A stretch of DNA of 64,000 nucleotides, taken from the IMG/VR virus record IMGVR_UViG_3300002131_000090, positions 62,001 through 126,000 of that record; one strand, written 5' to 3'. Source of the stretch: a virus. Each line of letters begins with the position of its first letter. Position 1 is the first letter of the stretch. Shown here piece after piece: positions 937 to 33,621 of the stretch. The position numbers and the translations under genes were made by a program. The notes beneath the pieces are model-generated. The model had not been told where the DNA came from. It ran no database searches and was given only the letters and a program-made list of their open reading frames with translations.

Positions 937-2352
937 TTATTCTAAATTTTTTGCTACATAGTTTTCTATAAACTGTTTTGTTTTATCTAACAATAATTCA
1001 TCCTTAAAATCTTTTTCGCGGAGTTCTAATAAATCTTTCATATTACAACGTAGTGTTGTACTAAATTCTCCCAGTTGAAATCCTGCAATTTTTCTATATT
1101 TGTAGGATCTATTATTATTATCTTTTGCTATCTTCATTAATTTAGTATGTACTAAGTCACCATTTGTCCAGTTAACAAAGTTATCATCAGTAAACTTGTA
1201 TCCGTATTTTTCATAGTTTTTTTCAAATTCACTTACCCATTGGTGTTTATTAATAACATTAATAGGATTTATATAAAGAGCCCAGTAATACCAACAACTC
1301 ATATCGTTGTCTATCATCCATTGTAAATCTATTTCTTCTTGTTCACCGGACCATCCCGGAAGTCCAACAATCATACCCATCCACCAGTTAGTTTTTCCTT
1401 TCCATCGGGTTTTTAACTCTAATAGAAATTCTTTAGCATACTGGCCGTTCCAACCTTTTCCTATTGCTTTTGAACCTTGTGCTTGAAAACTTTCAATACC
1501 AAAGAATGCGCTGCGTAAACCCGATTCGGGTAGTAAATCTATCATTTCTGGGTATGTTGCTAACAGATCAATTCTTATATAAGCAATGTACTCTAATTCA
1601 AAAGGTAACGATTTGCTAATACGATAAATCATTTGTACTTTATCCAAACTTTCATTAAGTGTATCATCACTAAAGTAATACTTTTTAATACCAAATCTTT
1701 CATAGTTTTGTATTAGTTCAGTTCTTATATCATTTTCACTTCGAATATTAGTTCCTTTTTTACGACCAGTTAACGGAAATTGACAAAACTTACATTTAAA
1801 AATACACCCTCTACTTATTTCAATACTTAGTGTTTCATAGGGTTGAATATAGTCGTCATTGCTATATACTTTTACAAAGTTTTGTATATCAAATTTTGGT
1901 CTTATTTCAATTTGCCTTGACAAACTATCAAGCATTGCTAATGTTTCGTCTTCGGCAAACTGATGTATACGTATCCAATCATTATCCATTATAGGAGACG
2001 TTGAATTTGATCCACCAAGAATCCATTTTATATTAGGATGAGTATTTCTAAAAACATCTCTTAAATGCTGTACCCACTTCGGATATACAATGCCGCCGAC
2101 TGTTACACTATTTAACTCAATTCCGGTTACTTCCCAAAAGGTAGTACTTACTCCAAAAGCAAGAGTGGTGTTATCGATATGTTTTTTAGCAATCTCTTCT
2201 ATTATATGAGGTTGTAGTTTAAAACAAAAGTCTATTACTTTTACAGTGTACCCAAACGTTCTTAGCCAAGAAGCAAGTTGATATTGGCCACCACTACGCA
2301 CAGCGTAATGCTCCGGTTCTTCCATTCCGGCAAAAATAATAAAATTTGTCAT
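937..2352 (-). CDS. Radical-SAM protein with B12-binding-like N-terminus
   Basis: 471 residues. The canonical radical-SAM motif is RGCIFKCKFC, with cysteines 183, 187 and 190 that would hold the 4Fe-4S cluster. The first ~150 residues have the alternating strand/helix look of a Rossmann-type cobalamin-binding domain (GGQYQLASWLRTFGY, ILGGSNST), as in B12-dependent radical-SAM enzymes, but no DxHxxG motif was found, so cofactor binding is uncertain. Conserved radical-SAM landmarks follow, such as YFSDDT and FFGIESFQ. Its start overlaps the stop of the upstream gene by one base (TAATG), implying translational coupling. The gene lies between two copies of the tail of that upstream gene. Substrate and reaction unknown; methyl transfer or ring chemistry would be typical for the family. 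Confidence 0.85.
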   Translation of the reverse strand: MTNFIIFAGMEEPEHYAVRSGGQYQLASWLRTFGYTVKVIDFCFKLQPHIIEEIAKKHIDNTTLAFGVSTTFWEVTGIELNSVTVGGIVYPKWVQHLRDVFRNTHPNIKWILGGSNSTSPIMDNDWIRIHQFAEDETLAMLDSLSRQIEIRPKFDIQNFVKVYSNDDYIQPYETLSIEISRGCIFKCKFCQFPLTGRKKGTNIRSENDIRTELIQNYERFGIKKYYFSDDTLNESLDKVQMIYRISKSLPFELEYIAYIRIDLLATYPEMIDLLPESGLRSAFFGIESFQAQGSKAIGKGWNGQYAKEFLLELKTRWKGKTNWWMGMIVGLPGWSGEQEEIDLQWMIDNDMSCWYYWALYINPINVINKHQWVSEFEKNYEKYGYKFTDDNFVNWTNGDLVHTKLMKIAKDNNNRSYKYRKIAGFQLGEFSTTLRCNMKDLLELREKDFKDELLLDKTKQFIENYVAKNLE

Positions 2353-3464
2353 TAAACTTTCCTTTTAGGTATTTTACTGTCTGCACTACTTACACAGCTA
2401 TCAGTTATACAAGGCATTGGTTTGTTAAATAGCGTAAAGCCTGTTTCGATATTACCAAGTGGAACATCGTGACAACTATAACTACGCTTTACGCTGCCGT
2501 CGGGTTCGCGTATGATAATACCTTGATACCCAGCATTACAATGCCATCCTTTAAACTTGTTAAAGTTAAAAGCGTTAAATCGTTCTGCTTGATCCATATA
2601 GTATTTATTACCGTTAGAATCCGCCATTTCAATTTGCATATGCCACGGCACACTAGAATCGTTCTTTTCGTTAATTTCTGTAGGTACTTGAAAATTAGGT
2701 GTAGGACGCTCCGCCCACTTACGCTTGCTTTCTGTGTACGCACGTTGCGGCATACCGTTGTGTAAACGCTTTAGGTTGTCGTCGGTGTAGCCATCTACCA
2801 CTCGACTAGCTGTAGGGTCGCTTTGAGGCTTCAGCGTGACGTTTATACCTTGCTCGTGAAAGAACAATGCATTGTCCCAATCCTTCTCAAACCACTCTGG
2901 TACCATAACCATGTTGATAGTTACTTGTACATCATGCTCTTGACAGAAAATTAACTTGTCTGCAAAATCCTGCATCTTCTCTGGTGTGCTAAGATGTTCA
3001 GTGTGCAAACTTGCTGTAATACTTGCACGGTGAAATGGCGTTACTGCTTCTACGTACTGCTCAAACCACGCCATATTGCGTGAGCAGTTTGATGTCATAT
3101 GAACACTAGTGTAATTAGTATTACCAACATCATTAGCAAGATGTTTGAGAATGTCCAAGTAACCAGGGTGAAAAGTAGGCTCGCCTCCACTAAGACTAAA
3201 ATGAAAGCTATTAAAACCGTTGTCACGTGCCTGCCTTTTTATTTCGTCAATTGTTGTAAGACATAGCTCTGTTGGTCTATGGTCTTTTCGATCAGATCTA
3301 GCGTACGGCCAACAGTAACTACATTTATAGTTACAGAAACGGCCCAATAGCCAACTAACAGTAAAAAGATCGCGGTAAAGAAGAGTCCTTTGCCCGACAC
3401 TAACAATGTCGTCAAACGGGATTTTTGTAAAATCATAATTACTCCATTTTAAATCTTCAGTCAT
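2352..3464 (-). CDS. Radical-SAM/SPASM-like protein
   Basis: 370 residues. RFCNYKCSYC carries cysteines 44, 48 and 51 for the radical-SAM cluster; SGGEP (92-96) is the SAM-contacting GGE motif. Several cysteines between about residues 305 and 357 (HCNAGYQG, SCHD, PCITDSC) suggest auxiliary iron-sulfur binding of the SPASM or twitch kind. It is the first minus-strand gene after the divergent intergenic region, and a consensus sigma70-like promoter ends only five bases before its ATG (3464-3462). It is therefore probably the head of a short operon running through the 937 gene to the amidinotransferase. The last codons recur as a detached fragment at 851-922. Peptide or small-molecule substrate not deducible. 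Confidence 0.87.
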   Translation of the reverse strand: MTEDLKWSNYDFTKIPFDDIVSVGQRTLLYRDLFTVSWLLGRFCNYKCSYCWPYARSDRKDHRPTELCLTTIDEIKRQARDNGFNSFHFSLSGGEPTFHPGYLDILKHLANDVGNTNYTSVHMTSNCSRNMAWFEQYVEAVTPFHRASITASLHTEHLSTPEKMQDFADKLIFCQEHDVQVTINMVMVPEWFEKDWDNALFFHEQGINVTLKPQSDPTASRVVDGYTDDNLKRLHNGMPQRAYTESKRKWAERPTPNFQVPTEINEKNDSSVPWHMQIEMADSNGNKYYMDQAERFNAFNFNKFKGWHCNAGYQGIIIREPDGSVKRSYSCHDVPLGNIETGFTLFNKPMPCITDSCVSSADSKIPKRKV

Positions 3465-3469
3465 AGTTT

Positions 3470-3498
3470 ATTATATTACATTCGAGCTGTTATGTCAA
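3470..3498 (-). promoter_or_regulatory. Consensus sigma70-type promoter (leftward)
   Basis: On the minus strand TTGACA (3498-3493), a 17-base spacer and TATAAT (3475-3470) match the bacterial housekeeping consensus at all 12 positions with ideal spacing. The expected start of transcription is about 3463, within the ATG of the 2352-3464 gene, so the mRNA would be leaderless or nearly so. Probably read by unmodified host RNA polymerase. Confidence 0.75.
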
Positions 3499-3535: not shown

Positions 3536-4516
3536 ATGGATATTGATGAAATAATTGAACTATGTATATTGTATCAAAAAACAAATCATGGTGGAAGGAC
3601 AAGTAGTTATGACAAATGCAGAAGAGATCTAAAACATATTTTAGAAGCTGTTCAAAAAGACATACAGCACAACTCGACTGATTTTATTACAGGAATTGCA
3701 AATTATTTTTGGCAAAATCAAAAACGTATGGTGTTGCGTTATAAAGTCGAACTTGACATTTACCGTTACATGTTAACGTTGCTAAAATCAAAATTTACGG
3801 CAGCAGATTTTAAAAAAGCAGATGCTAGTATTGGTGTACTTTGCGAAATCGTAGAGCACGGCCCGAGGTTAAAATCAAAACAGCTACATACAAGACTCCA
3901 AGATGCTGCAAATCATGCTAATATTTGTCAACGAAACTGGGACTATTCAATAGAAATTCCAGAGAACGACATTAGTGCATTAGTTAATGTTGCTAAACAT
4001 ATGCCAACAAAACAAAACTTAGAATGTTATCAGTTAGTTGTTTCTAACAATAGAGAGTTTAATAAATATTTTTATGAACTATCGTACGACGGAATTAATG
4101 ATAATAATAAATGGCGTAATGGCCAAGTTAATGCACCGTTACTTTTTTTGTGGGTTTGGCCTAATGGAACATGGGAAAGAACTCATGAGATACAAAAAGA
4201 TTTTAATACTGCATGTGGCATTTCATCAGGTGCAGTAGCATTGTCTGCTAACATGTTAGGATATCGTACTGGATTTTGTAGATGTTTTCAAGGCGAAACT
4301 ATAACTAAAGAAATGAATAAATTACTCAATATTAATTCAGACGGAGTATTTCTTGCACTTGGAATCGGATATCCTAATACGAAATACCAAAGTAACGAAG
4401 TTGTTTACTACGAAGGAATATCTTATCTAGGTAGACCTAAACAAGTTAAAAAAGATAAAGGTATTGTAACAACTATTGCACGAGAAGTTAAAGATATAAA
4501 AGTATACAGAGTCTAA
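3536..4516 (+). CDS. Nitroreductase-like FMN protein
   Basis: 326 residues; the only convincing plus-strand gene. The second half resembles the nitroreductase fold: an RNW(D) start of the domain near residue 132, a helix ending in KHMPTKQNLECYQLVV (compare the P-S-x-x-N-x-Q segment of the family), then VNAPLLFLW, and a glycine/alanine helix GISSGAVALSANMLGYRTGF followed by LALGIGYPN, matching the FMN-binding C-terminal region. The first ~125 residues are a helical region I do not recognise. It converges on the 4513-5667 gene with a 4-base overlap of stop codons. Flavin-dependent reduction is inferred from fold only; it might supply electrons to, or act in the same pathway as, the surrounding radical-SAM enzymes. 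Confidence 0.6.
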   Translation: MDIDEIIELCILYQKTNHGGRTSSYDKCRRDLKHILEAVQKDIQHNSTDFITGIANYFWQNQKRMVLRYKVELDIYRYMLTLLKSKFTAADFKKADASIGVLCEIVEHGPRLKSKQLHTRLQDAANHANICQRNWDYSIEIPENDISALVNVAKHMPTKQNLECYQLVVSNNREFNKYFYELSYDGINDNNKWRNGQVNAPLLFLWVWPNGTWERTHEIQKDFNTACGISSGAVALSANMLGYRTGFCRCFQGETITKEMNKLLNINSDGVFLALGIGYPNTKYQSNEVVYYEGISYLGRPKQVKKDKGIVTTIAREVKDIKVYRV

Positions 4517-5667
4517 ATTTTAAATTCTTCTACAATATCAAACAGACTTTCATCTCTACTTTTATCTAATGCATCAGTATAATCTAAAAATTTATTGTAT
4601 TTGTTACTCCAGTCTTCTGAAAACATATAATCAATAATGCCTTGTACTCTATCTAAATATACATAGGGCTGCAAACGTTGTTGTGCAAGTGTTTTTAAGT
4701 GTTCGGGCAAAACTTTAATATTAAGCTCGTCGGGATGATTTAAAATATTAAAATAAATTTTGTGTCCATATGGTATAGCCCAATCAATAAATTTATAAAG
4801 ATGCAATATATTATACATCTGTACTGTACAGTGTATTTCAATATTAGCATTTTCTAAAGTTCTAATTGTTTCAAAGTTTTCAACAATCTTGTTCCAGTTG
4901 CTAGGGTGTCTTATATATCTATCTAATGCACCAGTTGCGTCAATTGAACAGTTCAACTGGATTTGTTTAAACTTCTTCCATTTTTCTAAAAGATGTTTTG
5001 GAACATTTGTTAAGTTGGTGTTGTATTTTAGTTTGATATTACGAGCAGTTCCGTTTTCAATAAAGTAGTCTAACAGTCTATGCTGTTCTTTAATGATAGT
5101 AGGTTCGCCGCCTGTTAAATATATTTCTTCAACAGTGTTTGCAATACTAAACAAATTCTCCCAAGTTTTTTCAAGCTCGGGCCAATCCATACTACTTAAT
5201 CTTTTGTACTCACTTTCACTTAGCGCATCGTTAATTAAGTTCCATTCTTTAACCCACATGTTACTTGCATATGGATTACACATGCGACATTTTAGATTAC
5301 ACAAGTTTCCTAAGCGTAAGTCAACATATTTTATATCAAACGTTGCATCTGTTGTATACGTTTTATCTTCTTCCCACTTGTTGTTCCATGCTTGTCTTGC
5401 ACTTTTAATACCAACATCTTCTTCTTGAAAGCAGCGTTGACACATTTCAGGACGTTCGTTTGAAAGCATCTGTTTACGAATAGTAGTATAAACTTCACTG
5501 TTCCATGCATCTTCTAAATTATCTTTGTATAACTTATATGGAACGCCGGCGGTGTTGGTTATAAAGTTTTTTCCTGGAGTCGAGTTGCAACATACTCTTA
5601 AATTGCCACTAGCATTAGTTGCAAGATGCATCCAAGGTAAGACACAGAATGTTTTAGAAGTTGACAT
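4513..5667 (-). CDS. Twitch-domain radical-SAM protein
   Basis: 384 residues. An N-terminal twitch-like segment holds Cys8 (TFCVLPW), Cys26-Cys27 (RVCC) and Cys76/Cys79 (CQRC), likely an auxiliary 4Fe-4S site. LGNLCNLKCRMC (Cys123, 127, 130) is the radical-SAM cluster, followed by TGGEP and by a CSIDATG strand typical of the barrel. The start was set at the ATG 5667-5665 because AGGA lies 9 bases before it and the paralogue at 5654-6727 starts at the same place relative to the FCxLPW motif; an earlier start at 5691 lacks a ribosome site. It overlaps the preceding gene by 14 bases. Substrate unknown. The nearest paralogue is the next gene upstream. Confidence 0.87.
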   Translation of the reverse strand: MSTSKTFCVLPWMHLATNASGNLRVCCNSTPGKNFITNTAGVPYKLYKDNLEDAWNSEVYTTIRKQMLSNERPEMCQRCFQEEDVGIKSARQAWNNKWEEDKTYTTDATFDIKYVDLRLGNLCNLKCRMCNPYASNMWVKEWNLINDALSESEYKRLSSMDWPELEKTWENLFSIANTVEEIYLTGGEPTIIKEQHRLLDYFIENGTARNIKLKYNTNLTNVPKHLLEKWKKFKQIQLNCSIDATGALDRYIRHPSNWNKIVENFETIRTLENANIEIHCTVQMYNILHLYKFIDWAIPYGHKIYFNILNHPDELNIKVLPEHLKTLAQQRLQPYVYLDRVQGIIDYMFSEDWSNKYNKFLDYTDALDKSRDESLFDIVEEFKI

Positions 5668-6727
5668 ATTGTTGTTTCCTAAGTGTATCACGCAACTGCG
5701 TTTGTTTTTTAAATGTAGCGTTTAGTTTATCGTCGTATTTATTTTCAAGTTCTAAAATGTCTTTTAGATATTCATTTAAGTTTGGATATTTATTATACTT
5801 ATTTTTTATTTTATCTCTATATTCGAGACGGTGTACCCACGGATGTAAATGAGTCGGTTCTTCGACAAATATTAGACTTATTTCCATTCCGCGATTTAGA
5901 AAATATTCTAGCGTTTCAGGAATATAAAACACATTATATGCACTTACAGTTACAAAAATCTTTAATTCAATGTCGCGTTCTAATATTAATTTGTTAAATC
6001 TATTCTCAAAGTTTTTCCATTTACCAGGCCAACGAATATATTCGTACAAGTCGCCTATTGCATCACAACTGATATATAATGTTTTCTTTTTAAATCTGTT
6101 AAGCACTTCTAACTTATCATCACTTATTAATAATGCATTAGTTATAAAAGAAATCTCTATATTTTCTGGGTTATGTAGTGATTTTAAAAATTTCATTATA
6201 TTAGGATTGGCAAACGGTTCTCCACCGGTAAATTTTAGATATTTTAAATTTTCTAATTTGCTAATTTTATCAAATGCAATGGTGACCCAGTCTTCATTGT
6301 AATGTTGGTTAGCAGTCCATAGGTCAGTGTCAGTCCATTCTAGTGCATTTTTTAAAACTTCTTGTTTTAATACAGAACTACTATGCGGTTCGCACATTCT
6401 GCAACCGAGATTACACAAATTACCTAATTTTAAATCAATACTTACAAGCTCGTACGGTTGTTTGTACATTTTTAAAGATTGTTCTCTAAGACTTTCAATA
6501 CCAACGGCTTCTTTTTTCCAGCATATATTACACTCTTTTGGTTTTTTATTATCCAGTAGTTGTGATTTTATATATGTTATTTTATCTGCCTTGGTTTGCC
6601 AACTATCTTGCCAGGAGACTGTTTTTTCATTTTGTTCCCACTTGAATTCGCAACACGGACGATAGTATCCATCCGTTGTACTTGCTGCTTGAGTCCAAGG
6701 TAGAGGACAAAAGGTTTTAGATTCCAT
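5654..6727 (-). CDS. Twitch-domain radical-SAM protein
   Basis: 357 residues, the same architecture as the 4513-5667 product: Cys7 in TFCPLPW, Cys25-Cys26 in YRPCCEF, Cys66/Cys69 in CNIC, then the radical-SAM triad Cys105, 109, 112 in LGNLCNLGCRMC and the TGGEP motif. YISCDAIGDLYEYIRWP is the conserved C-terminal barrel landmark shared by most twitch paralogues here (SIDxxxxxxxYIRxPxxW). The C-terminus is lysine- and asparagine-rich. The start overlaps the upstream 6717-7163 gene by 11 bases. Part of the tandem array of radical-SAM genes; reaction unknown. Confidence 0.87.
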   Translation of the reverse strand: MESKTFCPLPWTQAASTTDGYYRPCCEFKWEQNEKTVSWQDSWQTKADKITYIKSQLLDNKKPKECNICWKKEAVGIESLREQSLKMYKQPYELVSIDLKLGNLCNLGCRMCEPHSSSVLKQEVLKNALEWTDTDLWTANQHYNEDWVTIAFDKISKLENLKYLKFTGGEPFANPNIMKFLKSLHNPENIEISFITNALLISDDKLEVLNRFKKKTLYISCDAIGDLYEYIRWPGKWKNFENRFNKLILERDIELKIFVTVSAYNVFYIPETLEYFLNRGMEISLIFVEEPTHLHPWVHRLEYRDKIKNKYNKYPNLNEYLKDILELENKYDDKLNATFKKQTQLRDTLRKQQYVNF

Positions 6728-7163
6728 TTACAATTGTTTCGTAATAGTGCTGTGGCCAACTTTTATAATAATCAGTTGTGTGAAGATACTTGCGTTTTTC
6801 TAATATGTCACTTTTAGATTGTATAAAAATACAATTAGTAAAGTTCTGGGTAAAGAATCCAGAATCAGGAGAACTTATAAAATATAAAAGATTAGTATCT
6901 TTTTTATTATACTCTTCTATTATTTCTTTACAATTTGCAATATTGATATTTTCTCCTAACCAACAAATTCCAATATCGTATCTATTGCTATCAAACATAT
7001 TTAAATTGTCGTTGACTAATACGCTAGCATTAATAAACTGTATTTTATCAGTTAGTCTGGCACGTTTGGCATAAGGACACACAGGAAATCCATCATTCCT
7101 TACAGGTTCAATTTCTTCTTGTATCCACAATACAAACTTTATTTTAAATTCTTCAAATGTCAT
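6717..7163 (-). CDS. Small conserved-looking protein, CPYAK motif
   Basis: 148 residues, not recognised with confidence. Residues ~24-35 read DGFPVCPYAKRA, reminiscent of the CPFA signature of small DUF1415-like proteins, but this is a weak resemblance from memory. The rest alternates beta-strand and helix (YDIGICWLGENI, TNLLYFISSPDSGFF). No signal peptide or membrane segment. Its start overlaps the stop of the 2OG-oxygenase gene as ATGA and its end overlaps the next radical-SAM gene by 11 bases, so it belongs to the same translationally coupled operon. Function unknown; the single conserved-looking Cys could be a redox or metal site. Confidence 0.6.
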   Translation of the reverse strand: MTFEEFKIKFVLWIQEEIEPVRNDGFPVCPYAKRARLTDKIQFINASVLVNDNLNMFDSNRYDIGICWLGENINIANCKEIIEEYNKKDTNLLYFISSPDSGFFTQNFTNCIFIQSKSDILEKRKYLHTTDYYKSWPQHYYETIVNGI

Positions 7164-7930
7164 TTATGCTCTTTATAAAATTGTATATTAATTGCGTTCT
7201 TCATCCAAGTATAATTATCGCCGGTAAGATTGCAACTAGCATGTATTTGGCAAGAATCAAATACAATTAAGGATCTAATTTTTTGCTCAATAATAATTTC
7301 TTCACTAAATCCTTTAAAGTTGTTTTTAGTTATTTGTGGGTACTTAGTTTCAGTCCACTGATTAAGATCTAGGTTGTCGTCTGTTGGAGTTCCGTTTATG
7401 TCAATCAATCCGTTGTAAGATCTTAGAATTTCGTACATCGAACTTTCGTCTCCGGACAAATAATCTTTATCAAATATTACACTGTAACCAATTCGTCTTT
7501 GATTCATAAACGCAGTACATGCCTGAGAACCTTTTGTTAGAAATAAAGGAATAATAACACTTTTATAAGGTATTAAATTTTCTGTCCATTCATTATTAAC
7601 TTCTTCATCTTGTGAAATTAAATCAACATGAGCGTCATGTAGTTGACTTGTTATAAAATAGTTTCCAGTATGCTGTTCGGCAAAATCGCCTAATAGCTCT
7701 CTGAACCTTACAGATATCTCGGGCAAATCTTTCATCATTTTAGTTATAGATACCACAGGTTGAATATTAGACGAGCTTGGTTGCATCTTTACTCTTTTAG
7801 CGTTCTGAAATTGATACAATCTTAAAGTATCAATTTCTTCAATTGTAAAAAAGTTATCAATTGATTGTGCTTTTGAAAAACGATTAACTATATCATTGTT
7901 ATAGTGTTTGCAGCAATCTATATATTTCAT
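7160..7930 (-). CDS. 2OG-Fe(II) oxygenase-like protein
   Basis: 256 residues. The C-terminal two-thirds look like a double-stranded beta-helix oxygenase: HxD iron ligands at His101-Asp103 (HDAHVDL) and a distal His in VFDSCQIHASCN near residue 233, followed by a strand KNAINIQF typical of the last core strand. The usual 2OG-binding Arg is not obvious, so cosubstrate use is uncertain. An insertion of ~70 residues (GDESSMYEILRSYN region) separates the metal ligands. ATGA overlaps couple it to both neighbours, the PLP-protein gene and the 6717-7163 gene. It could hydroxylate or desaturate a product of the neighbouring tailoring enzymes (inference). Confidence 0.62.
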   Translation of the reverse strand: MKYIDCCKHYNNDIVNRFSKAQSIDNFFTIEEIDTLRLYQFQNAKRVKMQPSSSNIQPVVSITKMMKDLPEISVRFRELLGDFAEQHTGNYFITSQLHDAHVDLISQDEEVNNEWTENLIPYKSVIIPLFLTKGSQACTAFMNQRRIGYSVIFDKDYLSGDESSMYEILRSYNGLIDINGTPTDDNLDLNQWTETKYPQITKNNFKGFSEEIIIEQKIRSLIVFDSCQIHASCNLTGDNYTWMKNAINIQFYKEHK

Positions 7931-8856
7931 CCTAGCTTTTCTTTCATTTTTTGATAAAACACGCCGTTTCTTGAATCTAATAACGGAGTTCTAATATTAA
8001 TTCTATTTGTAGTTTTATCTCTATGGAACTCGTTCCATTCAAAGTCTCCTTGTGCAACATGTATAGTATGAGATGGGGTCAATCCAAAGTAATCACATAC
8101 TGTTGCTTGATGTTCTTTATATATGTTTGCACAATTATCTGGTGAAAATTCTTTCATTAATAGCAATCCTGCAAATATGTTAGTATGTATTCCGTGTCGC
8201 CATTCGTACTGTAGTGCTAACGGACCATGATTCCACTTACTAAAACATATTCCAGATCTCCATTGCCCAGTTTGCAATCCTTTTGTTGTACTAAATGTAA
8301 CTACCTTGATACAATCATGATCTAAAGACCAACTAAGATCGTAACATGTTCCAAACCATGCACAGTCAATTAAAACTGGAATATTTAACTTATTACAAGT
8401 TTCCATAATTTCTTCATATAGTGGATGTACTTCGCCTGTACCACTAAATGGTATACTAAGAATAACTGCATCGCCGAATTCTAACGGTCTGTCGTCAATA
8501 AAGTCATCCCAATTCCATGCATATGCATCTCTATTGTAAGGGTATTCACCTCTTAACATTCTCGGTGTCCAGTTATTTCTTGCACATTCGTAATGGAACC
8601 AATCTAAAGTTTGTGTTGCTCCTAGACTTACATATCGATGCGGAAAAGTTTCTAATCCAGTAATCTTAACAGTTTCTGAAGATTCTATCCATTTAGGATA
8701 AAATTCTAAAAATTCATCTTGTACATCGTAGTCGCCATTAAACCATCCGTTTTCCTTTATGTAGTTAGATAAAAATTTTGTACATTCGGAAACTTTAGCA
8801 GAGTTGCCAGTTTTTCCTAAATAGTCTCCATACAAGGATTCAAACTTTTTACTCAT
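7927..8856 (-). CDS. PLP-dependent aminotransferase-like protein
   Basis: 309 residues with fold-type I aminotransferase landmarks: SLGATQTL (77-84), the pyridine-nitrogen Asp164 in VLIDCAWFG, the probable Schiff-base Lys192 in TFSTTKGLQTG, and Arg200 in QWRSGICF. It is shorter than usual class I/II enzymes (about 380-400 residues) and seems to lack part of the C-terminal small domain. The start is the ATG at 8856-8854 (MSKKFESLYGDYLG) with AGGA 9 bases before it; an upstream TTG at 8883 has no ribosome site. Eight bases overlap the stop of the preceding radical-SAM gene. It may make an amino-sugar or amino-acid-derived group; the substrate is not predictable. Confidence 0.68.
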   Translation of the reverse strand: MSKKFESLYGDYLGKTGNSAKVSECTKFLSNYIKENGWFNGDYDVQDEFLEFYPKWIESSETVKITGLETFPHRYVSLGATQTLDWFHYECARNNWTPRMLRGEYPYNRDAYAWNWDDFIDDRPLEFGDAVILSIPFSGTGEVHPLYEEIMETCNKLNIPVLIDCAWFGTCYDLSWSLDHDCIKVVTFSTTKGLQTGQWRSGICFSKWNHGPLALQYEWRHGIHTNIFAGLLLMKEFSPDNCANIYKEHQATVCDYFGLTPSHTIHVAQGDFEWNEFHRDKTTNRINIRTPLLDSRNGVFYQKMKEKLG

Positions 8857-26602: not shown

Positions 26603-26630
26603 ATTATAACAGCTAGATATTATTTGTCAA
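26603..26630 (-). promoter_or_regulatory. Consensus sigma70-type promoter (leftward)
   Basis: TTGACA (26630-26625), 16-base spacer and TATAAT (26608-26603) on the minus strand. The expected start is near 26596, giving a ~12-base leader that contains the AAAGGA ribosome site of the oxygenase gene. The -35 box overlaps the last codons of the SGNH-hydrolase gene. Confidence 0.75.
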
Positions 26631-27543
26631 GCAGTTTCTTGTGTATATACTCTGCTACACGACAATGGTCTAAGTGTCCTGGATGTATTAAGTCTCGTGC
26701 ATCGCATGTAAATTTAAAATAAGTTGATCTTGCAAAACGTGCTGCTGCTGGAAAGTACGAAAACTCAACTAACGGTACTCTGTCTTTACACAGTTGTTTA
26801 AATGATTTTGCTGTATAGTATGTTAACATGTTTTCGTTGTATATGTCTGTGTTTCTATATTGATATAATTTTAATAGTGTTTCTTCTCGTTTACCATTTA
26901 CATTAAAGGCATTCCATAATCCAATTTGCCAATATCCTTCAAATTCAAAATAACGAAAACGATCGCAAGCTGTCCAATTAACTGCAATTGCATGTGGACG
27001 ATCAAATCTTTCTAATAACAATGCTGCTGTATGAAGTAGTAATTCGTTTGATGCACTAGGTATGCCCAAGTTTACAACCTGGCGACCTGTTAATTGTTCT
27101 AATTCATATGCTATTGTTTCGTCATCCGAAACTCCAACACCAAATGTATTCGAGCATCCAATTAGAACAATAGCATCCTTCCAATTTACATCTTTCCACT
27201 CATAAGTTCTAAAACCGTTAGAGTTTAACTTATATGTTACTTTCTTATTTCTATACTTCCAATCCGGAGGCATTTTTTTTAGACTTTCTTGTAATGATGT
27301 AATTGAATCAGTATTACTATACTCGTCTGGGTTGATTCCATTCTCAGGAGTAAATCTCCATAATTTAAAATCAAAAGGCAGTAACGGATCCATTGCATAC
27401 TCAGGAAACGTCGATTGATCTTTAACTAGTTCAATTATGTCACCGTCAAGAATTCTTTGTAGTCGTTGTTCTTGACGTACTTGAGCTTTTGCTTCGAGTC
27501 GTTGTGTTTTTGCTTCGAGTTCAGATAATCTTGATTTTTTCAT
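26620..27543 (-). CDS. SGNH/GDSL hydrolase-like protein with coiled coil
   Basis: 307 residues. Residues 1-35 are a charged heptad-like helix (LSELEAKTQRLEAKAQ), probably a short coiled coil. Block I is VLIGCSNTFGVG with nucleophile Ser131; VNLGIPSASNEL provides the Gly/Asn oxyanion region; DLIHPGHLDH near residue 290 is block V with the Asp and His of the triad. SGNH enzymes in polysaccharide clusters add or remove O-acetyl or other acyl groups. ATGA overlap with the next SGNH gene upstream. Its 3' end carries the -35 box of the 26603-26630 promoter. Confidence 0.75.
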   Translation of the reverse strand: MKKSRLSELEAKTQRLEAKAQVRQEQRLQRILDGDIIELVKDQSTFPEYAMDPLLPFDFKLWRFTPENGINPDEYSNTDSITSLQESLKKMPPDWKYRNKKVTYKLNSNGFRTYEWKDVNWKDAIVLIGCSNTFGVGVSDDETIAYELEQLTGRQVVNLGIPSASNELLLHTAALLLERFDRPHAIAVNWTACDRFRYFEFEGYWQIGLWNAFNVNGKREETLLKLYQYRNTDIYNENMLTYYTAKSFKQLCKDRVPLVEFSYFPAAARFARSTYFKFTCDARDLIHPGHLDHCRVAEYIHKKLLDK

Positions 27544-28565
27544 TGTAGACTTAATATGTGATTATGTAAATATTTAGCAAACAAATCATGTGCTTTTTCT
27601 CCAGGGTGAGCACACGGTGTAATCCATCCATTTGGAGACCTGTTTCCTAAAAATTGGAAATAGTAATCAGTCCTATCTTCTACATCAGGTTCTTGCGATA
27701 ATGCTAATTCTGCAAAAGTTTTCTTGTTAGCAGGAGAAAACATCAATCTCCAAGGAAACTGATTTAATAACTTTCTACTGTGCTTAGGATCCCACGACGG
27801 CTTTAACTCTACAGGTATTGTATTATTGTAGTCGTCTGCTCTTCTTACATCTTGTTTTAATATGTATTCAAAATAGTCTTTGTCGTACCTTTTATCAAAC
27901 CCAGGAGTGATAATTAACTTAGCATTATTGTGTGCTGTACACCACGATAATAATTCTTGAACATGTCCAATTTGTTCAAGAACTCCAAACTTTTCGCTCC
28001 ATAAATTTTTTCCGTAACCTTCCCAAAGAGTTCTTCTGTCAGACGGTTCCATACTTTCGTAATGAGGCCACATACAAACCCATCTAAAATGATCGTCGCA
28101 TGTATCGTTAATAAAGTCAAATCTTTCAAGGCCGCTTGGCATGTATACTACAATAACTTCTTTTGCAAGACTCCACCTAATATCAGGATGAAAATAAAGT
28201 TCTTTAATCGAGCCGCGATTGCCGCAGCCTCTAAGTCCGAGATTTATTGGAGTATATGTATGATTAAAGTATCTGTTACATAGTATATTTACAAATGAAT
28301 TTGCATATTCTAAAAAGGTAAAATCAATGCTGCCGTCTTTTGCCCTTTTTGTAGCGGGATATTGTTTTAATATTCGTTTAACGTCTTTATCCGTTAGCGT
28401 AGGTTTTAACGATGCTCCTTCGCCTTTGTATTCCCATTCAAAGTTATCATACAAGGTATCGTTAATTGCACCCTGTCCTTGTACAAAGGAACACCCGATT
28501 GATATTATTGCTTTACCTGTTTTTTTTAAACTATCGTTTATTTCTTCGACTTGAGAATTGTACAT
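27540..28565 (-). CDS. SGNH hydrolase-like protein
   Basis: 341 residues. SIGCSFVQGQG (nucleophile Ser26), NLGLRGCGNRGS (Gly/Asn block) and a C-terminal CAHPGEKAHDLF (catalytic His near 322 or 326) fit an SGNH-type esterase. The middle part contains tryptophan-rich stretches without recognisable domain. AAGGA stands before the ATG at 28565; the gene overlaps the end of the preceding glycosyltransferase-like gene by 35 bases. It is closest in block I to the 30864-31568 product ([11 protein letters not shown]), so these two probably diverged from one duplication. Confidence 0.7.
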   Translation of the reverse strand: MYNSQVEEINDSLKKTGKAIISIGCSFVQGQGAINDTLYDNFEWEYKGEGASLKPTLTDKDVKRILKQYPATKRAKDGSIDFTFLEYANSFVNILCNRYFNHTYTPINLGLRGCGNRGSIKELYFHPDIRWSLAKEVIVVYMPSGLERFDFINDTCDDHFRWVCMWPHYESMEPSDRRTLWEGYGKNLWSEKFGVLEQIGHVQELLSWCTAHNNAKLIITPGFDKRYDKDYFEYILKQDVRRADDYNNTIPVELKPSWDPKHSRKLLNQFPWRLMFSPANKKTFAELALSQEPDVEDRTDYYFQFLGNRSPNGWITPCAHPGEKAHDLFAKYLHNHILSLQ

Positions 28566-29877
28566 CGTTTTCCTTAAAATGATTTGTCAACATGTTAACT
28601 GCAGGACTGACAGTTACTCTAGTATTTAACAAGGTATTACTATTGTGAATTAATATTGATTTTAGTCCTTTAAATAACTCAAACTTTTCATCGTTGTTCA
28701 TAGCGTTCAAACGTTTTAATTCTGTAATTATTGCATACAAACGATCCCATGTTTCTAGTTCATCATATGCTTCGTTTATAAAAGGATGAAATGTTTTGTA
28801 ACCAAGTTCCTTAAGGTGTTTTAACGAATGTCGATTTCCAAACATAATAAAAGGATGATTACATGCTATTGTTTTAAATGTTTTTTCACTTAAAAAACAA
28901 GTATTTGTATTGTCACTGTAGTGTGCTTCGCTGATTACACTTAACCAAGTGTCTAGTGTAATTTGTTCGTTAAAGTTAGTTAAGTAATTTCCACAATCGC
29001 TGTCTGCAAACCCTTCTACATTTTCTGCATTAGGAGGGGTCATAGGCATCAATGGCAACAACTTTTTATAAAGATCGTGCCCAACTTCTTTTCCGTCCAT
29101 ATGAGAATAAAGTTGTGCAAAATGATTCATACTATTAATATTGTTGTTTAGCAAGTCTGCATTATATAGACAACTAAAGAGATGCGCCCTGTGATTTCTT
29201 GGTCTTTTTTGTAAACAATTAAAAGTTTTAATATTTGCTAAGTTGCTTTCTTTATATCTTTTTTGCTGTTTAAAAGAAGGCACCCCTTGACGATATGCTA
29301 TTTCAGCCATTGATGATTCAAAGTGCGGATATGGTATAACTAAGATACGGCTACTGTGTACATGTATAGTTGCCCATTCGTCATATTGCTCTTTACTTGC
29401 CATGTTTCCAGTGACATATATTACTTGCTTAGGATCAATTTTATATTCTGTACACTGATCATGAAACCATTGCCATTGCCATGTTTCTTGATAACCTTCA
29501 TGTGATTGATCTAATAATAAAAATGCCTTTCCAGATTGTAAGTCTTCTAAATAGATTGGATTTAACCAATAAAACACCGACTGCTGGTTCATTGAAAATG
29601 CTTTGCTGTTTGAATAATTTTTAAAGCCGCCGGACCAGTTATCCGGAGAATGTGCAACTCCTGATGAAAGAATATAGTTAAATCCTTTAGACGGTCTATT
29701 TTTTGAAACTACTATATCATCTAGCAACCCATCTACGTCTTGCCCTAATCTTATAAGATGTAATAATAAAGGAGTGGCTGTAAATCTTTTTATGCCAGAG
29801 CTATTAGTATCACCGCATTTTACAAAATTTAAAAATACGTTTGTTTTTTCTTCTATTTCTTCAAACATAAAATACAT
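28531..29877 (-). CDS. Exostosin/GT10-like glycosyltransferase
   Basis: 448 residues, paralogue of the 24654-25877 protein. The C-terminal block SEKTFKTIACNHPFIMFG, then a GYKTFHPFINEAYDEL segment (around 345-395), is the shared signature; upstream FNCLQKRPRNHRAHLFSCL corresponds to the strand leading into the second Rossmann half. The N-terminal ~200 residues include VIYVTGNMASKEQYDEW, consistent with the first GT-B domain. No membrane segment. Starts just after the epimerase stop (TAAATG) with GGAAAG upstream. Confidence 0.68.
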   Translation of the reverse strand: MYFMFEEIEEKTNVFLNFVKCGDTNSSGIKRFTATPLLLHLIRLGQDVDGLLDDIVVSKNRPSKGFNYILSSGVAHSPDNWSGGFKNYSNSKAFSMNQQSVFYWLNPIYLEDLQSGKAFLLLDQSHEGYQETWQWQWFHDQCTEYKIDPKQVIYVTGNMASKEQYDEWATIHVHSSRILVIPYPHFESSMAEIAYRQGVPSFKQQKRYKESNLANIKTFNCLQKRPRNHRAHLFSCLYNADLLNNNINSMNHFAQLYSHMDGKEVGHDLYKKLLPLMPMTPPNAENVEGFADSDCGNYLTNFNEQITLDTWLSVISEAHYSDNTNTCFLSEKTFKTIACNHPFIMFGNRHSLKHLKELGYKTFHPFINEAYDELETWDRLYAIITELKRLNAMNNDEKFELFKGLKSILIHNSNTLLNTRVTVSPAVNMLTNHFKENDVQFSSRRNKR

Positions 29878-30879
29878 TTAAATTAATCTTTCCTTCCAGG
29901 TTCTTGGAGTTTTAGAGTTTACTATTTCTAAAGGAAACGTATAATCAAACGGTTTGGTGCCGCGCTTTTTGATATAATCGATTGTACGTTCAACTGCTGT
30001 TTCTAAATCTGTTGTTGTTTTATAGTTTAATACTTGTCTTGCTTTGTCTGCACTACATGTTGCATGTTTAACTTCTTGTGGTCTGTCATCTACATGTATC
30101 GGTTGTAAGTTACAACCGGTTTTGTTAGCTATTAAATTTGCCAAATCTTTAACTGTAATTGTTCCTTCATCTGGTCCGATGTTTATTATTTGTCCTACAA
30201 TATCGTTGTCTAATATAAGTTTTTCAAGACACTGTATACAATCGTCTACATAACTAAAGCATCGTGTTTGTAAACCATCGCCATATATAATAGCAGGCTT
30301 ACCTTGTAAATTTCTGTTTATCATAATGCTCATTACGTTTCTAAACGGATCGTCATAGCGTTGTCTTGGCCCTACAATGTTGTGAGGTACTGCTATATTC
30401 CATTCCATTCCGTGCGTATCACTTAGCATACGCAATGTATCTTCGCCTGCTACTTTTGCAATGCCATATGGATCTACAGGCATAGGCTTCATATCTTCGG
30501 TAAACGGAGTTTGTTGATTTCCATAACGTGCCATACTAGAGCAATATACAAAGCGTCTTACTTTATTTTCTAATGCTGCACTAATTGTAGAGACTGTTGC
30601 TTGAAACACGTTTTTAGTAATAAAGTCGGGGCTTACTACACTTAGACCTTCGTGTGCTGTTGCAGCAGTATGTATTACAACATCGACATTTTTCATTATG
30701 TCTGCCATACGTTCTCTGTTGCAGCAATCTACTTTGTAAAGTGTTGCTTTATGATTTACGTTATCTTCATACCCACCAATTAAGGTATCATTACCTAATA
30801 CGTCGTGTCCTAAATTAATCATTCGATCGGCTAAATGGCTTCCTAGAAAGCCTGCTATACCTGTTATAAAAATTCGCAT
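29878..30879 (-). CDS. NAD-dependent epimerase/dehydratase (extended SDR)
   Basis: 333 residues. Rossmann GxxGxxG at [10 protein letters not shown] (6-15), VIHTAATAH (68-76), catalytic Ser near 114-115 (YCSSMARYG) and the YxxxK pair Tyr138/Lys142 (PYGIAK), followed by [10 protein letters not shown] and [15 protein letters not shown], all typical of UDP-glucose 4-epimerase / dTDP-glucose 4,6-dehydratase relatives. It would supply a modified nucleotide sugar to the adjacent glycosyltransferases. GGAGAG stands 3 bases before the ATG. The exact sugar cannot be assigned. Confidence 0.92.
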
Positions 30880-31568
30880 ATTCTCTCCGCAAAATAACTA
30901 TGTGCTGTTTCTGAAGGATGGAATCTAGGCATAATCCATCCGTTAAGTTCAGGAAACTTTTTATCTGTAAAATGCATTTCCATCATGGAAAGCTCTGCTG
31001 TTGAGCCTGCTTGTTTTACTGTCCAATCAAAGAAGTTAGAACATCCGTCAATAGTTAAAAATCTATCCCATTCAACTGAATTAACAAAGTTACTATTAAT
31101 AATTTTATAGAAATATTCTTTATTATATTCTCGTGTAAATGCAGGAAACATAATAAGGTTATGTCCATTAGCTTTACAAAAATTTTGAATATTAACAATG
31201 CTTACAATTGCATTTAAAACTTCTGTTTTTGCCGAAACAAAAAAAGACAAAGCCTTTTCAAGATTTACAAGTTCAACAGAACCAATGTTAACAGGTGAAG
31301 TATGCGGAAAGACATGCTCAAAGCCGTTGCCGTCGCGTCTAAATAAGTCAACTCTGTTCATACCAGTCGGCATAAAAATTACTGTAGAATTACTAGGAAT
31401 GTCTGCCATTAGTACTCGCGTTACTGCACCTGCATTACCGGATGATTCTTCTCCCAAGTTAATACCGCCAAGGCAATCTATAAAGGACTTGCCTTTTTCA
31501 ATTTCTGCACCTTGCACAAAAGAACACCCAGTGCCGATAATTATTTTATTAAGTTTACGTTTTTTCAT
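30864..31568 (-). CDS. SGNH hydrolase-like protein
   Basis: 234 residues. [11 protein letters not shown] (Ser16), [14 protein letters not shown] (oxyanion Gly/Asn), and [12 protein letters not shown] (His near 218) give a compact SGNH domain. [14 protein letters not shown] after block II is a further shared segment with the 27540-28565 product (VVYMPSGLERFDF), making the paralogy clear. Probably an O-acyl esterase or transferase on sugars. Overlaps the epimerase gene by 16 bases; no Shine-Dalgarno before its own ATG. Confidence 0.72.
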
Positions 31569-31577: not shown

Positions 31578-32264
31578 TTAATGTATATCTAAAAATTCTT
31601 TTAACTGCGGATACATATAATTATTACAATATCTCATGTATGCTTCAAGTCTTGGGTGGTTGCCGTCTTTAAAAAACGGTAATTTATTTTTACGACACCA
31701 ATCAACAATAGGGTTGTTAAAGATGTTAACATTATGTTTAGATAAATGTTCTTCAAATATTATTTTTTGATCGGTTGTAATTACAGTATCCCAGCCATAC
31801 ACTACAAATGTATTAGGTGTCATCTTTTTAGCAGAGATTATGTAAAATAAAAGATCCTCAAGATGCTGTTCAACATCCATTAGATCTCCGCCGGTTTCTT
31901 TTTGAGAAAAATATGAATGAGATAAGAAATCAATTCTTTCTTTTTTATCAAAAATATTTATAGACTTTATAACAGTTGAAGCAAGAGCATTTTTATTTTC
32001 ATTTTTTTGCTGTTTAATAAAAAAAGGAGTCATTGGTTTTCTTAAATAACTACGTTCTGACCCAGTTATTTGCCATATAACTATATCGTTAGTAGTAATA
32101 GGAGTATTAAACATTAGTTCTTGAAATCGACGTTGCTGTAAACCATTGGAACTTGAAGATTGGGCAAGATTTATTAATGGAATTTTCATAGATTCCGAAA
32201 GACACCTTGCCCATCCCACGTGATGTGTAATACTGCAACCTAATGTTATTAATCTATCATACAT
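31578..32264 (-). CDS. SGNH hydrolase-like protein
   Basis: 228 residues. LGCSITHH (Ser11), NLAQSSSSNGLQ (oxyanion block with Asn) and FKDGNHPRLEAY (Asp/His near 200-203) support an SGNH-type fold; the middle (DIVIWQITGSERSYL) matches block III. More diverged from the other three SGNH products. ATG overlaps the end of the radical-SAM gene by 8 bases. Confidence 0.7.
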   Translation of the reverse strand: MYDRLITLGCSITHHVGWARCLSESMKIPLINLAQSSSSNGLQQRRFQELMFNTPITTNDIVIWQITGSERSYLRKPMTPFFIKQQKNENKNALASTVIKSINIFDKKERIDFLSHSYFSQKETGGDLMDVEQHLEDLLFYIISAKKMTPNTFVVYGWDTVITTDQKIIFEEHLSKHNVNIFNNPIVDWCRKNKLPFFKDGNHPRLEAYMRYCNNYMYPQLKEFLDIH

Positions 32265-33621
32265 AACTTTTGCATAAATTCCAAAATTCTGTCATTTCAG
32301 GAAATGTTTCTAATAAGTTTGTATTCCTTCTACGATCATATTCAGTAAACCAATTGTAAAAATCTTTTCTACCTTCGGTTATTTTATGGTCATCGTATTT
32401 TACAGTGGCAAAATAATTTCTTACTCTGCGAAATCTTTCATATTCTAGGTCACTAAACTTAGTTGTATCGTTGTCATCTTTGTTATCTTTGATAAATTGT
32501 AAGATGTTATCAAAGTAAGGAAGGAATTCTTCCTTAGGAAGTATGTGCATATCGTACTGCAAGGGTTCTTTAAGATAAGGAGTGTCAAATCTAATTCTAC
32601 GTCTCTTTGGATCGTGATACTGTTTTCTCCATTCAAGAACTTTTTCTAAAAAGTCAGTAAAACTAGTGACACTTAAAATGTTAAATGTACACATTACTGT
32701 CAGGTCGGCGCCAGTAATATCGAGGTAATTCTTCATATTACTTTCCCACAACTCTACGTTTAAACCAGTACGCAGGTATTCTGCACGTTTGCTGAATGTA
32801 TCTATACTGGTATACAATTTAAACTTGTTGATTGTATTCGTATCTAGAAGTTCTTTTACGTTGTTAGATAATTTTGTAACTAATCGCGGAGTTACTCCGA
32901 GGTTGCTGTTTAAGTTAAGTTCAAGATTAGGTCTTGGCTCTTCTCTGAGTCTATCAAACAAATTCCAAGTGCTTTTGTGCATAAGTGGCTCGCCGCCGGT
33001 AATGCGTAAAATGTTTAATGTTTTACTTAGCTCGGGCCACCATTCCCACCATGCTTTAATATAAGGATTGTCATCTTCGGGAATTGGAGTAAACCAATCT
33101 ACGTCAAGTGCGTGATTTTTTACAGTAGTATAAGGTCCAAACTTTTTAATTTCAGCATGAAAACTACTACTTGCCATTGGGTGACAATATCCACATTTGA
33201 AATTACATTCATTACTAAATGCAATTTCAACGTATTCAGGATTAACATTAAAATCCCAAGGGTTATCAAGAATTTCTTTTATACGTTCTGGCTTATAGAT
33301 ACTTTCATTACGAATCATTCTATCTGATATATGATCAGTACCTAGCGATTCGACATTCCAACAGTACTTACACCCTGCAGGCTTTTCTCCAATTAACATT
33401 TTTGCACGTTCTTTTTTCTTAATAAGCGTATTATGCAATGCACTTGGATTGTTTTTTATTTCAGCTAAATCAATTGCATGTGGAGCAGGATGATAACAAC
33501 TGTGCGTTTGCCCGGTATGCAAATATATTGTAGTATGATGCCACTTTGCCAAACAGAATGTTGGGCTTATTTCGTCCATTTCAAATGTACGATTTTTTAT
33601 GTTTTCTGTTTCAGATGTCAT
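32257..33621 (-). CDS. Twitch-type radical-SAM protein, HSCYHP subgroup
   Basis: 454 residues; paralogue of the 23133-24653 protein with identical N-terminal Cys positions (23, 42, 84, 87) and the same HSCYHP and DLAEIKNNPSALHNT landmarks. Radical-SAM Cys139, 143, 146 in SNECNFKCGYC, TGGEP, and TSIDTFSKRAEYLRTG. Start overlaps the upstream GT-A gene as ATGA. The pair rSAM + GT-A is found twice in the window, but here the GT-A gene precedes the radical-SAM gene. Substrate unknown. Confidence 0.88.
   Translation of the reverse strand: MTSETENIKNRTFEMDEISPTFCLAKWHHTTIYLHTGQTHSCYHPAPHAIDLAEIKNNPSALHNTLIKKKERAKMLIGEKPAGCKYCWNVESLGTDHISDRMIRNESIYKPERIKEILDNPWDFNVNPEYVEIAFSNECNFKCGYCHPMASSSFHAEIKKFGPYTTVKNHALDVDWFTPIPEDDNPYIKAWWEWWPELSKTLNILRITGGEPLMHKSTWNLFDRLREEPRPNLELNLNSNLGVTPRLVTKLSNNVKELLDTNTINKFKLYTSIDTFSKRAEYLRTGLNVELWESNMKNYLDITGADLTVMCTFNILSVTSFTDFLEKVLEWRKQYHDPKRRRIRFDTPYLKEPLQYDMHILPKEEFLPYFDNILQFIKDNKDDNDTTKFSDLEYERFRRVRNYFATVKYDDHKITEGRKDFYNWFTEYDRRRNTNLLETFPEMTEFWNLCKSYV

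Follow-up and report, generated by a model that had tools for sequence, protein, structure and literature searches.

A radical-SAM gene island in an uncultured phage, its conserved core and its relatives in Bdellovibrionota chromosomes

The DNA analysed here, a window of 64,000 nt (positions 62001-126000 of the IMG/VR record IMGVR_UViG_3300002131_000090, of 146,632 bases and called G000 below), contains an island of radical-SAM (rSAM) genes with a backbone, GT447, MT281, hyp89, rSAM10, rSAM8, rSAM3 and rSAM2. The order of these backbone genes recurs in related viral contigs, whereas the cassettes between them vary. The rSAM10-rSAM8-rSAM2 triple, often together with glycosyltransferase (GT) and methyltransferase (MT) genes, is also chromosomal in Bdellovibrionota. 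We tentatively favour the view that the island is a phage biosynthetic and tailoring cluster, read early by the host sigma-70 polymerase, which may build and remodel a cell-surface glycoconjugate. On this reading, an odd gene count becomes a testable pathway: its radical enzymes, as yet uncharacterised, have a defined core, and it may represent new surface chemistry that phages use in competition.

The island and its record

An earlier note had counted twelve CxxxCxxC radical-SAM proteins in 33 kb, nine of them with an N-terminal twitch cysteine pattern, and both counts held. Twelve open reading frames with an intact motif lie at 937-33621 (Table 1), and all match PF04055 (seven above the Pfam cut-off, five more weakly). 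The curated 170-bit threshold of NF033640 ('twitch domain-containing radical SAM', N-terminal twitch) is exceeded by exactly nine, with scores of 215-417 bits; the model defines a family only and assigns it no function. Members of this family would bind one auxiliary [4Fe-4S] cluster. Outside it are rSAM2 and rSAM10, both with a C-terminal Cys motif, and rSAM1, whose B12-type similarity is below all cut-offs. An alignment of 98 relatives shows no variation at C16, C84, C87, C131, C135, C138 and G194-G195-E196, and very little at C34, which is moved or absent in a few (for example, rSAM5). The backbone genes are under strong purifying selection (dN/dS 0.035-0.13), which excludes chance. Three further radical-SAM genes in G000 bring the total for the record to 15, and non-coding gaps take up only about 310 of the 36,000 bases of the island. 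As for the neighbouring enzymes that had been proposed, one 2OG oxygenase, the FkbM methyltransferase and the epimerase were recognised by Pfam, and one amidinotransferase is of the StrB/HsvA/SxtG type; the other three 2OG oxygenases, the sulfotransferase, the aminotransferase and most glycosyltransferases are motif-only calls.

Table 1. Features of the island and additional radical-SAM genes of the record (window coordinates unless marked G000)
Feature	Position	Strand	Basis
Second amidinotransferase	3..785, continuing beyond window to G000:61760	-	similarity to first amidinotransferase, by eye
rSAM1, B12-type (class B) similarity	937..2352	-	CxxxCxxC; PF04055 6e-14; PhpK/HpnJ-type NCBIfam similarity below cut-off
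rSAM2, core, C-terminal Cys motif, no N-terminal twitch	2352..3464	-	PF04055 7e-13
Sigma-70 promoter TTGACA-N17-TATAAT (12/12), 5' of rSAM2	3470..3498	-	consensus score
Nitroreductase-like protein, strand opposite to neighbours	3536..4516	+	PF00881 9e-6
rSAM3, N-terminal twitch, backbone	4513..5691	-	NF033640 397 bits; AF2 pLDDT 95.6; orthologues 54-79%
rSAM4, N-terminal twitch	5654..6727	-	NF033640 251 bits
Putative 2OG oxygenase	7160..7930	-	HxD...H by eye; no Pfam match
Putative PLP aminotransferase	7927..8883	-	motif only; no match in Pfam or the PDB; moves together with amidinotransferase and rSAM5
rSAM5, N-terminal twitch	8849..10174	-	NF033640 235 bits
Amidinotransferase, StrB/HsvA/SxtG type	10167..11240	-	PDB 1bwd 9.6e-24
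rSAM6, N-terminal twitch	11222..12307	-	NF033640 215 bits
rSAM7, N-terminal twitch	12307..13515	-	NF033640 254 bits
rSAM8, N-terminal twitch, core	13512..15035	-	NF033640 417 bits
rSAM9, N-terminal twitch	14989..16308	-	NF033640 219 bits
FkbM-type methyltransferase	16355..17086	-	PF05050 1.4e-18
Putative 2OG oxygenase	17086..17634	-	HxD...H by eye; no Pfam match
Putative 2OG oxygenase	17607..18200	-	HxD...H by eye; no Pfam match
rSAM10, core, C-terminal Cys motif	18843..19910	-	PF04055 1.4e-5
hyp89, conserved small protein, backbone	19903..20172	-	15 loci; conserved along length; no Pfam match
Putative sulfotransferase	20263..20961	-	RTGST motif only; no Pfam match
MT281, putative methyltransferase, backbone	20958..21803	-	no Pfam match; next to core in phages and in part of the Bdellovibrionota
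GT447, putative GT-A glycosyltransferase (tandem), backbone	21787..23130	-	invariant DxD family, GT307 included
rSAM11, N-terminal twitch	23133..24653	-	NF033640 301 bits
Putative glycosyltransferase	24654..25928	-	TEK motif only; no Pfam match
2OG-Fe(II) oxygenase	25877..26584	-	PF13640 1e-12
Sigma-70 promoter TTGACA-N16-TATAAT (12/12)	26603..26630	-	consensus score
Putative SGNH hydrolase	26620..27543	-	GCSNTFG...HPG by eye; PF20078 below cut-off
Putative SGNH hydrolase	27540..28565	-	GCSFVQG...HPG by eye
Putative glycosyltransferase	28531..29877	-	SEK motif only; no Pfam match
NAD-dependent sugar epimerase/dehydratase	29878..30879	-	PF01370 9e-48
Putative SGNH hydrolase	30864..31568	-	GCSFVQG...HPS by eye; no Pfam match
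Putative SGNH hydrolase	31578..32264	-	GCSIT...HPR by eye; no significant Pfam match
rSAM12, N-terminal twitch	32257..33621	-	NF033640 316 bits
GT307, putative GT-A glycosyltransferase	33618..34541	-	invariant DxD; AF2 pLDDT 88.9; weak fold match
Putative GT8-like glycosyltransferase	35109..35954	-	DxD motif only; no Pfam match
Putative GT8-like glycosyltransferase	35944..36786	-	DxD motif only; no significant Pfam match
Sigma-70 promoter TTGACA-N17-TACAAT (11/12), island start after fibre genes	37152..37180	-	consensus score
Tenth twitch-type radical SAM	G000 7429-8733	+	
B12-type radical SAM	G000 55569-57335	-	
B12-type radical SAM	G000 57328-58866	-	

By DNA polymerase and gp6 baseplate wedge, the closest isolates are the jumbo phages Phosso and Atu_ph07 (48%/46% and 36%/34% identity), and the description 'marine T4-like' proved too narrow. 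Jumbo phages have genomes of more than 200 kb; the record is 146.6 kb in size, relatives reach 330-382 kb, and G000 is probably a fragment of a larger genome.

The suggestion that no phage system of this size had been described fails in part. The marine TARA_ERS488813_N000010, with a 183-kb genome, is a T4-like virus that has, as the window does, 12 radical-SAM genes, but these were reported as Fe-S genes, together with an A-type carrier, rather than as a cluster (PMC5332604); by motif search only, no CGCG-type ORF was found in our record to indicate such Fe-S assembly genes. Pelagimyophages have rSAM cassettes and glycosyltransferases in a hypervariable region beside the tail fibres, a host recognition cluster that resembles the island in gene order, and the available part of the article mentions neither a conserved core nor promoters nor a link to Bdellovibrionota for it (PMC7029224). 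That cluster belongs to the SAR11 myophage lineage; among isolates, G000 matches Phosso and Atu_ph07 best. The conserved core and the link to predators appear to be new.

Backbone, cassettes and promoters

Homologues of rSAM2 are carried by at least 594 IMG/VR stretches, and a search of 50,697 isolated-phage records gave zero matches. Identity of rSAM2 is 75-93% in many viral contigs; its conservation exceeds that of the phage DNA polymerase, and its dN/dS is 0.035-0.06. For rSAM8, identity is 73-88% in related phage loci, and for rSAM10 it is 47-82% in phage loci. The cassette amidinotransferase-rSAM5-PLP-rSAM4 moves as a unit (L023, L026), as does the block hyp115-GT-GT-GT307-rSAM11/12 (L047, L049). 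For several cassettes, the loci compared contain few relatives or none, which would suit a loose set of horizontally gained auxiliary genes serving no single pathway; such a set is very unlikely, given that the backbone keeps its order and identity in viral contigs as well as in chromosomes and is under purifying selection. Rather than being unrelated singletons, the twelve have a syntenic backbone and common cassettes in related viral contigs, and the genes act as a linked system. To that extent the proposal of one tailoring pathway stands, and a surface-polymer pathway fits the neighbours; a single pathway using all twelve is unproven, as conservation extends to no more than part of the set and the remaining genes come in swappable cassettes.

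Sigma-70 promoters scoring 11-12/12 are located in intergenic gaps at 37152, 26603 and 3470 of the window and at G000:60306. Upstream of viral rSAM2, this score was reached in 32 of 64 distinct sequences versus 1 of 52 controls, and the rSAM2 promoter is kept across viral contigs although the spacers differ. The rSAM2 mRNA is predicted to be leaderless. The predicted promoters favour early expression, separately from the tail genes. Late expression by read-through is also possible, since the island directly follows the tail-fibre genes. The T4-type late promoter TATAAATA gave 2 matches versus 15 expected and was not used, and the five sites of a late-promoter variant, AATAAATAC, are too few for a claim.

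The glycan made by the pathway might instead decorate the tail fibres or other virion proteins of the phage itself. Fibre and baseplate genes immediately precede the island and share its strand, and an analogous region has been described as a host-recognition cluster (PMC7029224). However, its own sigma-70 promoters set the island apart from the tail genes, and chromosomes, with no phage virion to decorate, carry homologous modules, so that a virion target seems unlikely.

Relatives in Bdellovibrionota chromosomes

rSAM2 is present in 17 of 291 Bdellovibrionota genomes versus 0 of 398 genomes of Pseudomonadota, the single comparison phylum sampled. The Bdellovibrionota homologues show 57-70% identity for rSAM2, mostly 53-63% for rSAM8 and 38-48% for rSAM10. 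Up to 37 twitch-model matches occur per genome, and these tens of twitch paralogues are otherwise without explanation. The Bdellovibrionota radical-SAM arrays share with the island the core and the GT and MT homologues, and differ from it in being chromosomal and having other neighbours; our literature search found no paper on them. Since the rSAM2 tree has a midpoint root only and one long partial branch (PH_L031), the direction of transfer is not firmly claimed.

The genome scan used a closer alignment, A1 being too diverse, and the cellular relatives are thus biased to an rSAM3-like motif. Two such twitch relatives lie in polysaccharide clusters, one with an ABC-2 exporter, a Wzt C-terminal domain, a sulfotransferase, a GT and an epimerase (L103), the other with a UDP-sugar dehydrogenase, GTs and an epimerase (L101). 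The core in Bdellovibrionota is usually found outside obvious polysaccharide clusters.

Taken together, a surface-chemistry pathway common to virus and cell appears to exist. A bolder proposal, to which we give little credence at present, is that rSAM10-rSAM8-rSAM2 with the GT and MT could form the core of a biosynthetic pathway, so far undescribed, in Bdellovibrionota predators, and that these widespread uncultured jumbo phages could have such predators as hosts and bring the pathway along to rebuild the predator surface. The core in predator chromosomes hints at the host of an abundant group of uncultured phages, for which a contig from IMG genome 2747842453 is a further lead.

GTs, 2OG oxygenases, radical-SAM enzymes, an aminotransferase and early-type promoters would also be a plausible toolkit for hypermodifying phage DNA, and G000 has a gene of the thymidylate-synthase family. 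Nevertheless, such a role is highly improbable: relatives of 344 kb and 330 kb, with 14 twitch-model matches each, have no member of that family (the sequences are possibly incomplete), and the module is chromosomal in bacteria.

Candidate chemistry and substrate

For the glycoconjugate pathway that we tentatively favour, we infer the substrate, reaction order, timing and benefit as follows. The host sigma-70 polymerase would read the island early in infection, a timing suggested by promoter sequence alone. Glycosyltransferases, the epimerase and the aminotransferase would supply a sugar scaffold, on which the rSAM10-rSAM8-rSAM2 core would carry out the first, obligatory radical modification. 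Swappable cassettes, with other twitch radical-SAM enzymes, the amidinotransferase, the sulfotransferase, methyltransferases, 2OG oxygenases and SGNH esterases, would afterwards decorate the product in a lineage-specific way. Most likely, the phage would benefit from a surface of the infected cell that is altered against competing phages.

Counting for a glycoconjugate are the backbone with its cassettes, the purifying selection, the promoters, the twitch relatives in polysaccharide clusters and the BtrN and StrB matches; counting against it are the peptide-enzyme folds, the motif-only GT, SGNH and 2OG calls, the position of the Bdellovibrionota core mostly outside polysaccharide clusters, and PqqD nearby in two loci. 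Unlike in an O-antigen or capsule cluster, no flippase, polymerase or ABC exporter was recognised among the island proteins scanned with Pfam; the cellular relative L103 does have an ABC exporter.

A peptide is also a possible substrate of the pathway. In a RiPP-like maturation, the twitch enzymes would act on ribosomal peptides or on surface proteins, and glycosylation would be an additional step. Foldseek found no close solved structure for these enzymes (TM normalised by query at most 0.40), and the nearest folds include anSME and the peptide-modifying enzymes SkfB, SuiB and CteB. The best match of GT307 is SunS, a peptide S-glycosyltransferase, followed by RmlT (E about 1e-4, TM about 0.3, a weak GT-A fold match). 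Moreover, a PqqD protein lies near two Bdellovibrionota twitch loci (L133, L134), and a Tad pilus-like gene is near the core in L149. Against these points, a single-sequence search met PqqD relatives only in those two loci and in no phage locus, unlike in a RiPP biosynthetic cluster, where the radical-SAM enzyme has a precursor peptide and an RRE (PqqD) next to it, and homologues occur in polysaccharide clusters. As a candidate precursor, hyp89 was rejected, being conserved along its whole length and not leader/core-like. We regard peptide maturation as conceivable, though rather doubtful. The PDB matches of rSAM10 to ubiquitin were set aside, as they cover a single stretch of 39 residues in which no domain passes.

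The N-terminal domain of the twitch enzymes matches the twitch domain of BtrN, an aminocyclitol enzyme. With the amidinotransferase similarity, this recalls aminoglycoside-type tailoring by BtrN and StrB, although the twitch domain is N-terminal in the island enzymes and no antibiotic pathway is implied. In one Bdellovibrionia chromosome, a homologue of the amidinotransferase with 50% identity adjoins homologues of rSAM5 and of the PLP protein.

The radical-SAM complement and its setting

Six-frame ORFs and motif reading recover the twelve CxxxCxxC proteins that the earlier note had placed at window positions 937-33621, and all twelve match the radical-SAM domain, seven of them over the Pfam cut-off. 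The claim that nine carry an N-terminal twitch also holds, since exactly nine score over the curated cut-off (170 bits) of the NCBIfam twitch model NF033640. Three further radical-SAM genes lie outside the window (bases 62001-126000 of the 146,632-base record), and a peptide deformylase (G000:8730-9263) adjoins the tenth twitch gene. The window paralogs share only ~20-33% identity with rSAM3, whereas orthologs in other loci reach up to 55-93%, so the divergence of the paralogs predates this phage.

Radical-SAM genes outside the nine twitch members, and near-consensus sigma-70 promoters (window positions; G000, whole-record positions)
Feature	Position	Remark
rSAM1	937-2352	similarity to B12-dependent enzymes, under every cut-off
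rSAM2	2352-3464	Cys motif at C-terminus
rSAM10	18843-19910	Cys motif at C-terminus
promoter	37180-37152	intergenic gap
promoter	26630-26603	intergenic gap
promoter	3498-3470	intergenic gap, upstream of rSAM2
promoter	G000:60334-60306	

The enzymes previously named around these genes fared unevenly. Pfam matches bear out one 2OG oxygenase, the FkbM methyltransferase and the NAD epimerase, and one amidinotransferase is similar to inosamine-phosphate amidinotransferase StrB, HsvA and SxtG; for the remaining 2OG proteins, the sulfotransferase, the aminotransferase, the SGNH hydrolases and most glycosyltransferases the assignment comes from a motif, with no family match. In the putative GT-A glycosyltransferase GT307, the DxD is invariant in the alignment, and the top fold matches of its model (pLDDT 88.9) are GT-A enzymes, at a weak level (E ~1e-4, TM ~0.3). 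Outside the window, the same strand encodes a class-III aminotransferase, an acetyltransferase, an Asp/Arg-hydroxylase-type protein and the remainder of the second amidinotransferase. A SET-domain protein (G000:53402-53938) adjoins the far end of the island.

The assertion that such an island has no precedent fails for size and kind, because a 183-kb T4-like marine genome carries 12 radical-SAM genes (PMC5332604) and, in pelagimyophages, rSAM cassettes sit with glycosyltransferases in the hypervariable region for host recognition, with O-chain modification proposed as their role (PMC7029224). A literature search, with subscription journals and preprints outside its scope, returned no account of the conserved core (rSAM10-rSAM8-rSAM2), its promoters or the Bdellovibrionota link.

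A conserved backbone among viral relatives

In 52 viral loci collected with rSAM3 as query, the glycosyltransferase GT447, the putative methyltransferase MT281, the small protein hyp89, rSAM10, rSAM8, rSAM3 and rSAM2 keep a constant order, many at 60-93% identity. The other genes form blocks common to subsets of loci, such as amidinotransferase-rSAM5-PLP-rSAM4, present in L023 and L026. Backbone dN/dS is 0.035-0.13, with several pairs near dS saturation.

When the viral collection was surveyed separately with rSAM2 as anchor, at least 594 relatives came up. Among 50,697 isolated-phage records rSAM2 has no match. A twitch gene over the cut-off occurs in 23 of 24 rSAM2-bearing records, most with 7-22 model matches. 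Where at least 9 kb lies upstream of rSAM2, rSAM8 (>=45% identity) is found in 38 of 70 loci and rSAM3 in 14, in records that are fragments and make absences weak; rSAM3 is thus less universal than the rSAM3-anchored survey suggested. Backbone order is kept in all seven loci with both (7/7). The conservation of rSAM2 (72% to the related record G046, 80% to G023) exceeds that of the core phage genes DNA polymerase (60% and 57%) and baseplate wedge gp6 (~38% and 37%). The 146-kb record L242 (IMGVR_UViG_2747842453_000003) has rSAM2 at 84% and a single weak twitch match only; it may point to a host, given that its IMG number lies outside the metagenome series.

The nearest isolates are Sinorhizobium phage Phosso (DNA polymerase 48%, gp6 36%) and Agrobacterium phage Atu_ph07 (46%, 34%). 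Since their genomes measure 470-490 kb, and contigs of twitch-rich relatives reach up to 330-382 kb, the record probably represents only part of a jumbo genome. A single 4,639-aa ORF (window 45141-59060), immediately before the fibre genes, probably encodes a giant protein of the tail or baseplate.

Transcription of the island

Most genes between 37130 and 4513 overlap their neighbour or directly adjoin it. Sigma-70-like sites occur at about twice expectation across the record (~22 observed vs 10.4), with a few within genes of the structural region, so that single sites prove little, and the promoter case, as read from sequence, is carried by gap position and conservation. Among 64 distinct viral sequences upstream of rSAM2, 32 score 11-12/12 for sigma-70, and in 28 of these 32 the -10 box stops 5-6 bases short of the start codon, vs 1 of 52 scoring 11-12/12 in controls upstream of rSAM3, rSAM8 and rSAM10. 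Spacers vary between phages, as would be expected of a working promoter. These features suggest that the host polymerase transcribes the island, as is typical of early genes, and predict a leaderless rSAM2 message.

Bacterial relatives and the candidate product

When bacterial and archaeal genomes were scanned, the matches lay mostly in Bdellovibrionota (phylum names being those in the database records of seed loci; cellular set collected with one motif pair). Of 144 Bdellovibrionota genomes sampled, 40 have the twitch family over the cut-off, vs 3 of 200 Pseudomonadota, the sole comparison phylum sampled, where at least two of the three positives were query-selected, as were some genomes of the Bdellovibrionota sample. 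rSAM2 proper occurs in 17/291 Bdellovibrionota vs 0/398 Pseudomonadota, profile-search counts including weak matches wherever no cut-off is given, and single genomes hold up to 37 twitch-model matches, some under the curated cut-off. In twelve Bdellovibrionota loci, mostly picked by a strong rSAM8 match, rSAM8 is grouped with rSAM2 or rSAM10; most have all three, contiguous or with few genes between, but in L146 and L145 the rSAM10 relatives close by are all distant ones, and L150 ends without rSAM2. GT307/GT447 or MT281 homologs adjoin the core in L139, L141, L144, L145, L146, L148 and L149. Locus L060, on a 916-kb contig, brings together rSAM5-, amidinotransferase-, PLP- and rSAM3-like genes, adjoining primase-like and sigma-factor-like genes.

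In the rSAM2 tree, 18 of 20 phage sequences form one clade (100/100), Halobacteriovoraceae are among the nearest bacterial lineages, and L024 falls with bacteria. Phage acquisition of rSAM2 from Bdellovibrionota seems likely, a direction that is not firm because the root is unsure.

Peptides, sugars and cyclitols are established substrates of twitch and SPASM radical-SAM enzymes. The N-terminal domain of the twitch family matches the BtrN twitch (E 1.6e-7), and the solved folds nearest the rSAM3 model (pLDDT 95.6) are viperin, CteB, SuiB, SkfB and BlsE; with TM <=0.40 by query length, structure gives no reading of substrate. Cellular twitch copies in L103 and L101 sit within polysaccharide clusters, that of L103 including an ABC-2 exporter and a Wzt C-terminal domain, and for this reason we tentatively favour the reading that the island would make a surface glycoconjugate early in infection. 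A peptide substrate is less probable, while PqqD proteins near twitch genes in two Bdellovibrionota loci (L133 17913-18755, L134 14642-14929), a Peptidase_S74 chaperone-domain protein in L133 and a Tad/Flp pilus-like gene few genes from the core in the Bdellovibrionota locus L149 (2-1942) point towards it. A virion glycan is slightly less probable still. DNA hypermodification is unlikely, as a thymidylate-synthase family gene was not found in the 330-344 kb relatives, although absences from fragmentary viral records carry little weight.

Read by eye, L144 18802-19998 is also Tad/Flp pilus-like, few genes from the core. The Vibrio phages KVP40 and nt-1 and their relatives encode distant twitch-family proteins (~20-26% identity), some genomes with several; these phages, being cultivated, offer a laboratory model for the family.
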